This document shows, one piece after another, positions 5,583 through 7,628 of a stretch of DNA of 64,000 nt; positions within the stretch are counted from its first letter, which is position 1, and every line of letters starts with the position of its first letter. The DNA comes from an uncultured Pelagibacteraceae bacterium. Its GTDB lineage: Bacteria > Pseudomonadota > Alphaproteobacteria > Pelagibacterales > Pelagibacteraceae. The DNA lies in assembly GCA_902595535.1 (NCBI GenBank), contig CACJQI010000002.1, positions 124,001-188,000 of the forward strand, written 5' to 3'. Under the pieces are notes generated by a model. It made no database searches. It saw only the letters and a program-made list of their open reading frames with translations, and was not told where the DNA came from. Position numbers and translations under genes: made by a program.

Positions 5583-5659
5583 TGGTGGGCCCGCCAGGAC
5601 TCGAACCTGGGACCAATACATTATGAGTGTACTGCTCTAACCAACTGAGCTACAGGCCC
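5583..5659 (-). tRNA. tRNA with CAU anticodon (probable tRNA-Ile2; elongator tRNA-Met not excluded), CCA encoded
   Basis: GGGCCTGTAGCTCAGTTGGTTAGAGCAGTACACTCATAATGTATTGGTCCCAGGTTCGAGTCCTGGCGGGCCCACCA; full cloverleaf. Confidence 0.93.
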
Positions 5660-5719: not shown

Positions 5720-5794
5720 TGGTGGGCCGTGTTGGTTACGCTCCAACTACCCCTGCAATGTCAATGCAGTACTCTACTATTGAGCTAACGGCCC
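5720..5794 (-). tRNA. tRNA-Val (GAC) with non-canonical T- and D-loops, CCA encoded
   Basis: GGGCCGTTAGCTCAATAGTAGAGTACTGCATTGACATTGCAGGGGTAGTTGGAGCGTAACCAACACGGCCCACCA; all four stems pair. Confidence 0.85.
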
Positions 5795-5801
5795 AGTAAA
5801 A

Positions 5802-7628
5802 TTAACTTTCTAAGAAACTTTTTAATTGCTTGGATCTGCTAGGATGTTTTAATTTTCTAAGAGCTTTTGCTTCAATCTGTCTAATTCTCTCCCTTGTTAC
5901 AGAGAATTGAAGACCTACTTCTTCTAAAGTATGATCAGTATTCATTCCAACACCAAATCTCATTCTTAAAACTCTTTCCTCTCTTGGTGTAAGAGTTGAT
6001 AGAATTTTAGTTGTAGCTTCTCCAAGGTTAGATTTAATCGCTTGCTCTAACGGTGCTAACGCTTTTGTATCTTCTATAAAATCACCCAAACTACTATCTT
6101 CTTCATCACCAACTGGTTTCTCAAGTGATACTGGTTCTTTTGAAATTTTTAATACTTTTCTAACTTTATCAAGTGGCATTCTAAGTTTTTGAGCTAATTC
6201 TTCTGGTGTAGCTTCTCTTCCAAACTCACTTAAAATTAGTCTTTGCGTTCTTACAATTTTATTAATTGTTTCAATCATATGAACTGGAATTCTGATTGTT
6301 CTAGCTTGGTCTGCAATAGATCTTGTAATTGCTTGTCTAATCCACCAAGTTGCGTAAGTAGAGAATTTATATCCTCTTCGATATTCAAATTTATCAACTG
6401 CTTTCATCAAACCAATATTTCCTTCTTGAATTAAATCTAAAAACTGAAGGCCTCTATTTGTATATTTTTTAGCAATTGAAATTACTAATCTTAAATTAGC
6501 TTCAACCATTTCTTTTTTGGCAATTCTAGATTCTTTTTCTCCTTTTTGAATTCTACTTACTAATTTTTTAAAATCAGTTACAGAAATTCCTAATTTATGA
6601 CTTATTTCAATTAATCTCTCTCTTATATTTTTAAATTCTTCTTTATTTTTTGAAAAGAACTGCTTCCAGATTGTGTTAGTATCTAAAAACTTTTTAAGAT
6701 TAGGATTAATCTCATTGCCAATATAAAATTTAATGAATTCATTTCTTGGTATTTTATGATCCATAGCAAGTCTTAAAAGATTGCCTTCTAATGATATAAT
6801 TTTTTTGTTTTCAACATAGTGTTTTTGTACCAATTCCTCTAAAACTGAAGGAGATAATTGAAGAGATTTAATGTTTTCTAAGATGTCATCTACAATTTTT
6901 TGATATCCTTTTTCTTTTGCGGGAGAAAAATTTTGTGAATTTAAAATACAATCTAGTTTTTCTTTTTGATATTTGATAAGCTTATTATATTCTTTAGTTA
7001 GAGTGCTAACAGTTTTTAAAACCTTTGGTTTAATTTCAGTTTCCATTGCGGCAAGCGTTGGATTAAAATCATCATCCTCACTATCACTAGATCCATCATC
7101 TTTTTCTGTTTCACCAGCATTCTTTTGCTTTGCACTAGGTCCTGTAGTTTCGTCTTCCATATAATTTGTATCAATATCTATAATTTCTCTTACAAGAATT
7201 TCATCTTTTTGTAATTGATCATTCCATTCAAAAAACTGTTGTGCAGTCATTGGACTTTGAGATAGAGCTATTAACATCACATCTTTTCCTGCTTCAATTC
7301 TTTTCGCAATTGCAATTTCACCTTCTCGAGAAAGTAATTCAACACCACCCATCTCACGTAAATACATTCTGATAGGATCATCACTTTTCTCTATCGTCTT
7401 ACCTTCTTCTTTAGAAGATCCTTCTTTTTTCCGTAATACTTTAAAATCTGATTTCTTTTCAACTAATGTAATATTTTCATCTAATATATGAATGAAGGCT
7501 TGGGCTAAATTTTCATCTGATAGGTTTCTTTTACCTAGAGATTTGTTTAATTCTTCATAAGTTATAAAACCCCTATGAATTCCACGACCCATTAATCTTG
7601 CAAATGATTTTGTAATAATTCTTTCCAC
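5802..7628 (-). CDS. rpoD: RNA polymerase sigma factor RpoD (sigma70)
   Basis: [84 protein letters not shown]. Confidence 0.98.

Follow-up and report, generated by a model that had tools for sequence, protein, structure and literature searches.

The G19-C56 pair forms the flat outer face of the tRNA elbow, which is recognised by the ribosome and by RNase P. The Steinberg laboratory (Zagryadskaya in NAR in 2003, Doyon in 2004) is said to have selected suppressor tRNAs in E. coli from libraries with randomised D- and T-loops, and in these selections a U at position 55 reportedly needed G18, a G at position 55 needed A18, and G54-G58 could stand in for U54-A58. In the canonical elbow, G18 enters between R57 and A58 and contacts Psi55, and the outer face is made by G19-C56 (PMC7912444, PMC4810234). 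Nearly all cytoplasmic tRNAs are regarded as sharing the 18-55 contact and Psi55 (PMC7912444), and the work of Pan et al. 2006, going by its title as given in PMC4810234, links the 18-55 contact to fast translocation.

The tRNA-Val(GAC) described here comes from a member of SAR11, and its elbow departs from this scheme at four of the bases involved, namely 18, 54, 55, and 58. We consider it likely that the gene encodes a working, selected elongator tRNA whose D-loop/T-loop elbow has been rebuilt and not lost. We infer from sequence that the exchanged bases pair with each other, that the cell charges and uses the tRNA, and that the loss of TruB was the cause of the change.

The window is the whole stretch of DNA that was analysed, 64,000 nucleotides in length. 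The gene lies on its minus strand, where linear base n of the tRNA corresponds to window position 5795-n, and its parts and neighbours are as follows.

5583-5659, minus strand: tRNA with a CAU anticodon and a canonical TTCGAGT loop, the co-oriented next gene (ARAGORN, Rfam)
5720-5794, minus strand: tRNA-Val(GAC) gene, encoded CCA included (ARAGORN; Rfam RF00005, 53.6 bits; the cloverleaf is the minimum-energy fold)
5736-5742, minus strand: T-loop AGCGTAA, read directly as A54 G55 C56 G57 U58 A59 A60, with A54 at 5742, G55 at 5741, C56 at 5740, and U58 at 5738
5748-5752, minus strand: variable loop GGGUA, giving A15/A48 at the Levitt position and not R15-Y48
5760-5762, minus strand: anticodon GAC (ARAGORN), which reads GUU/GUC
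5775-5781, minus strand: D-loop AATAGTA, placed by the Rfam alignment as A14 A15 U16 A18 G19 U20 A21, with U16 at 5779, A18 at 5778, and G19 at 5777
5802-7628, minus strand: rpoD (sigma-70), with Pfam sigma-70 domains, ending in a stop codon that precedes the tRNA-Val 5' end by 7 nt

The preliminary description of this DNA placed the gene, its AGCGTAA T-loop, four paired stems, and the CCA as ARAGORN, Rfam, and direct reading now confirm them, and the normal T-loop that it gave for the neighbouring CAU tRNA is likewise confirmed. All stems (7/4/5/5 bp) are paired, the minimum-energy cloverleaf has a predicted energy of -28.6 kcal/mol, and both the valine anticodon GAC and A73 are present. The Rfam score of 53.6 bits, against a gathering threshold of 29, is not the lowest of the genome, ranking 27th among its 32 tRNAs (score range, 48.0 to 74.4); the tRNA inventory of the genome consists of these 32 Rfam-scored tRNAs together with an ARAGORN run on selected pieces. 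A second valine tRNA, proposed in the preliminary description as possible cover for the same codons, was found in the form of a canonical tRNA-Val(UAC). GUU and GUC together make up 59% of the valine codons counted over sampled window ORFs, and this share and the anticodon point to ordinary decoding by tRNA-Val(GAC), with tRNA-Val(UAC) as the putative partner.

The elbow retains the canonical pair G19-C56, has A18-G55 in place of the canonical G18-U(Psi)55, and has A54/U58 in place of the canonical U54-A58 reverse-Hoogsteen pair. The D-loop had been given correctly as AATAGTA and described as being without G18-G19, of which the absence of G18 stands (the base is A18), whereas G19 is present by the Rfam alignment. 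The loss of both elbow contacts together, which was deduced from that reading, does not hold, as G19-C56 is kept and the bases at 18-55 and 54-58 are exchanged in a coordinated way. Compared with a canonical bacterial tRNA-Val(GAC), the gene shares the cloverleaf, the stems, the GAC anticodon, A73, the encoded CCA, G19-C56, U8-A14, and the 26-44 covariation, whereas it has A18, G55, A54, U58, A60, and A15/A48 where the canonical form has G18, U55, U54, A58, Y60, and R15-Y48.

In a DNA search covering 297 genomes of the family, the tRNA-Val(GAC) turned up with 75/75 identity in 79 species genomes, the source genome included and closed genomes among them. A scan of named genomes yielded at least 119 contig stretches with the swapped tRNA-Val, and the titles among the matches listed all belong to Pelagibacteraceae or Pelagibacterales, many of them being single-cell genomes. 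The Val pattern with the AGC loop occurs only in the source genus among 387 scanned genomes of the class, and the broader A18...G55 pattern, run over 249 genomes of the phylum, returned only the Val and Phe tRNAs of the source genome and one sequence judged not to be tRNA-like. A sequencing error or assembly artefact is ruled out by the identity in closed genomes and in many single-cell genomes. We also rejected a phage-borne tRNA, for which IMG/VR gave no match to the exact 3' piece or to the Val pattern.

Each of the 35 distinct full-length Val types listed has complete acceptor, anticodon, D, and T stems, with many compensatory changes, which affect the acceptor, anticodon, and T stems, and A18 and G19 are retained across all 23 of the A18-G55 Val types. 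Of the 21 distinct A54-class Val types, 20 have the T-loop AGC[GA]T[AT]A, and only the one in genome G158 departs from it. By the combination of compensated stems, a constant odd loop, and cross-species identity, we judge that this is a selected tRNA and not a relic, in line with the earlier view of it as lineage-specific and selected, to which its restriction to SAR11 in the class and phylum samples also conforms. Two Val(GAC) copies lie in genome G158 (C1:61920-61994 and C10:13077-13144): one is canonical, and the other has A18-G55 along with U56 and a T stem that does not pair, which may reflect decay or a binning error.

The preliminary description held that a canonical loop in close relatives would speak for a sequencing error or a recent pseudogene. 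A few relatives within the genus (G106, G110, G267, and G681) do have a canonical loop at the same locus, but the swapped form is the majority in the genus, so that the canonical relatives do not imply error or recent decay. Swapped and canonical versions share one rpoD/tRNA-Met locus, which indicates that the change either arose in situ or came by replacement there. The RpoD tree (16 rows) has weak support at most forks. Its deepest branches are two same-genus genomes of the canonical form, G110 groups with one swapped genome, and G106 is nested among others; with such weak forks and mixed placement, the tree fits gains, reversions, and gene replacement alike.

The neighbours of tRNA-Val(GAC) are rpoD, the CAU tRNA, and mlaC/mlaA. 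The distance from the rpoD stop to the tRNA-Val start is mostly -1 to 14 nt in same-genus loci with both genes, and the closeness of the tRNA to the stop codon makes it likely that the two are co-transcribed. The gap is -1 in 22 loci (compare window positions 5795-5804), where the rpoD stop codon and tRNA-Val share one base, the last of the former and the first of the latter, so that cleavage by RNase P would cut the rpoD mRNA back at the stop codon. Separately, partial 3' copies of tRNA-Val are found in two genomes (L126, G051:C1:397210-397265; L127, G181:C7:2870-2915), adjoined by glycosyltransferase- or asparagine-synthase-like genes in ORFs read by eye, and may indicate where a polysaccharide island integrates or recombines.

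The claim that the unusual loops are specific to one gene is contradicted by two further tRNAs of the source genome. The tRNA-Phe(GAA) (L074, G000:C7:33528-33602) has the D-loop AGGAGTA and the T-loop TGCGAAT, which amounts to A18-G55, and the tRNA-Thr(GGU) (L082, G000:C7:29342-29415) has the T-loop GTCAGTA with G54/G58. The G54/G58 form of Thr(GGU) was found only in G000 and G035 by an ATAG-anchored pattern, which is blind to other acceptor ends. The tRNA-Phe(GAA) is apparently the only Phe isoacceptor among the tRNAs found in the source genome, which makes the A18-G55 exchange compatible with essential decoding. Across SAR11, tRNA-Phe is split between G18-U55 and A18-G55. In one same-genus tRNA-Phe type (G043, G069, G102, G110, G124, G128, and others), the T stem GCTGG/CCCGC appears to contain a U51-C63 mismatch.

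Covariation was followed in distinct SAR11 sequences, 52 of Val and 23 of Phe, taken from fetched loci and from pattern searches. Of the 75 distinct types, 43 have G-U at positions 18-55 and 32 have A-G, with no other combination, although the sequences are related and not independent, so that these counts overstate the number of events. Positions 54-58 are U-A or A-U, and 19-56 is G-C in 51/52 Val and 23/23 Phe types, the exception being the decaying G158 copy. In two Val intermediates, those of G703 and G092, A18/G55 occurs together with a retained U54-A58 and the T-loop TGCAATC. Because these intermediates keep U54-A58, the A18-G55 exchange probably came first, suggesting an order in which the 54-58 swap followed later and in tRNA-Val only.

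The rebuilt elbow would work as follows. The outer G19-C56 pair is kept and would retain the recognition face, while A18 would take the slot of G18 and pair with G55 instead of Psi55. A54 with U58 would close the T-loop, replacing U54 with A58, and A16/U59 or U16/A59 would probably provide one more contact between the D- and T-loops. The tRNA-Phe would have undergone a separate A18-G55 exchange.

An elbow of altogether different geometry, in which the D- and T-loops of tRNA-Val are joined by a short Watson-Crick helix (16-59, 18-58, and 19-56) in place of the usual intercalation, appears unlikely to us. Its pairs are available, since 16-59 is U-A in 14 and A-U in 7 of the A54-class Val types, hence complementary in 21/21, and every one of them would also allow A18 to pair with U58. 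However, the A18-G55 intermediates have U54-A58 and lack complementarity at both 18-58 and 16-59, and tRNA-Phe has A18-G55 alone, so that a simple 18-55 exchange accounts for both genes.

It is less probable still, and by some way, that the gene is a degenerating tRNA or pseudogene, tolerated as the tRNA-Val(UAC) can read all valine codons. Such a tRNA-Val(UAC), canonical in form, is present, no Val(GAC) match was found in some near-complete genomes (G005 and G012), in view of which the isoacceptor may be dispensable, and G158 has a decaying copy with C56 changed and the T stem broken, next to the canonical Val(GAC) elsewhere in that genome. Yet the uncompensated stem changes and patchy decay expected of a pseudogene are not seen in the distinct full-length Val types, only the G158 copy decaying; the stems of all other types are fully compensated, the gene is identical across the 79 species genomes, the sole tRNA-Phe has the same 18-55 exchange, and the codons read by GAC are the larger share of the sampled valine codons. 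We give hardly any credence to a tRNA that takes no part in decoding and evades translation, as does the cell-wall tRNA-Gly of staphylococci, or to one that serves another aminoacyl-tRNA user, because, despite the altered T-loop and the existence of a second valine isoacceptor, G19-C56 is retained, no specialised user lies among the neighbouring genes, and the only tRNA-Phe uses the same A18-G55 contact.

The rebuilt, working elongator remains our preferred reading, and the modification enzymes offer a possible background for it. The TruB_N domain (PF01509; Psi55 synthase) has no match in the source genome, while all 14 control genomes matched. Among 80 genomes profiled, it was found in none of the 25 that belong to the same genus, of which several are single-contig, and not in the tested genomes of the SAR11 genera g2, g3, g4, g6, g8, g10, g11, g13, and g14; it is present in 11/11 genomes of the SAR11 genera g5, g7, g9, and g12 and in 17/17 other alphaproteobacteria. 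In the source genome, TrmFO (TIGR00137) gave only a sub-threshold partial match, read as MnmG, and PF05958 (TrmA-like) gave no match. The bases A54 and G55 make m5U54 and Psi55 impossible in tRNA-Val(GAC), and together with the undetected TruB, TrmFO, and PF05958, this lends indirect support to the altered TrmA/TruB modification that had been suggested for this tRNA.

TruB-positive genomes with a listed Phe have G18-U55 in 10/10 cases, and A18-G55 in Phe is confined to TruB-negative genomes. Three g12 genomes have an A18-G55 tRNA-Val despite TruB, which means that the loss of TruB is not a strict requirement; two of them match a same-genus sequence exactly, which suggests gene transfer. G18-U55 is also kept in many TruB-negative genomes. 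The link is correlational, and TruB loss is probably best seen as permissive, not required, for the A18-G55 exchange: its loss in most SAR11 genera probably lifted the premium on uridine 55 and so permitted the exchange.

We put forward a wider scenario only tentatively, its chances falling a little short of even. A clade of free-living bacteria would first have shed both TruB and the m5U54 methyltransferases, and with them its T-loop modification, and would afterwards have re-engineered 18-55 in at least two tRNAs, its only tRNA-Phe among them, leaving intermediates that lead from the canonical elbow to one that is fully swapped and has additional D-T Watson-Crick pairs. SAR11 bacteria, which are among the most abundant cells on Earth, appear to use A18-G55 in their only tRNA-Phe and in tRNA-Val(GAC). 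If this is true, they provide a natural experiment on why Psi55 and TruB exist, with the evolutionary intermediates supplied, and they would show G19-C56 to be the truly indispensable contact of the elbow. No publication reporting an elbow exchange in SAR11 was found in the literature searched, outside which most subscription papers lie.

Among known elbows, the eukaryotic initiator tRNA-Met has A54 in common with the SAR11 tRNA-Val, but there A54 pairs with A58 (PMC7912444), whereas here position 58 is U and position 55 is G. The elbow-degenerate metazoan mitochondrial tRNAs likewise have loops departing from TTCRA/GG. The SAR11 tRNA-Val differs from them in its full-length stems, its intact G19-C56, and its strictly conserved and covarying loops, and the degenerate, mitochondrial-like character attributed to it in the preliminary description is not borne out, given that all stems are complete, G19-C56 is kept, and positions 18 and 55 covary perfectly. 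While the A54-U58 of SAR11 is not among the combinations that the Steinberg laboratory is said to have obtained, which were laboratory selections, the SAR11 Val, Phe, and Thr tRNAs show, at the level of a sequence rule, just those combinations reported for the suppressor tRNAs.
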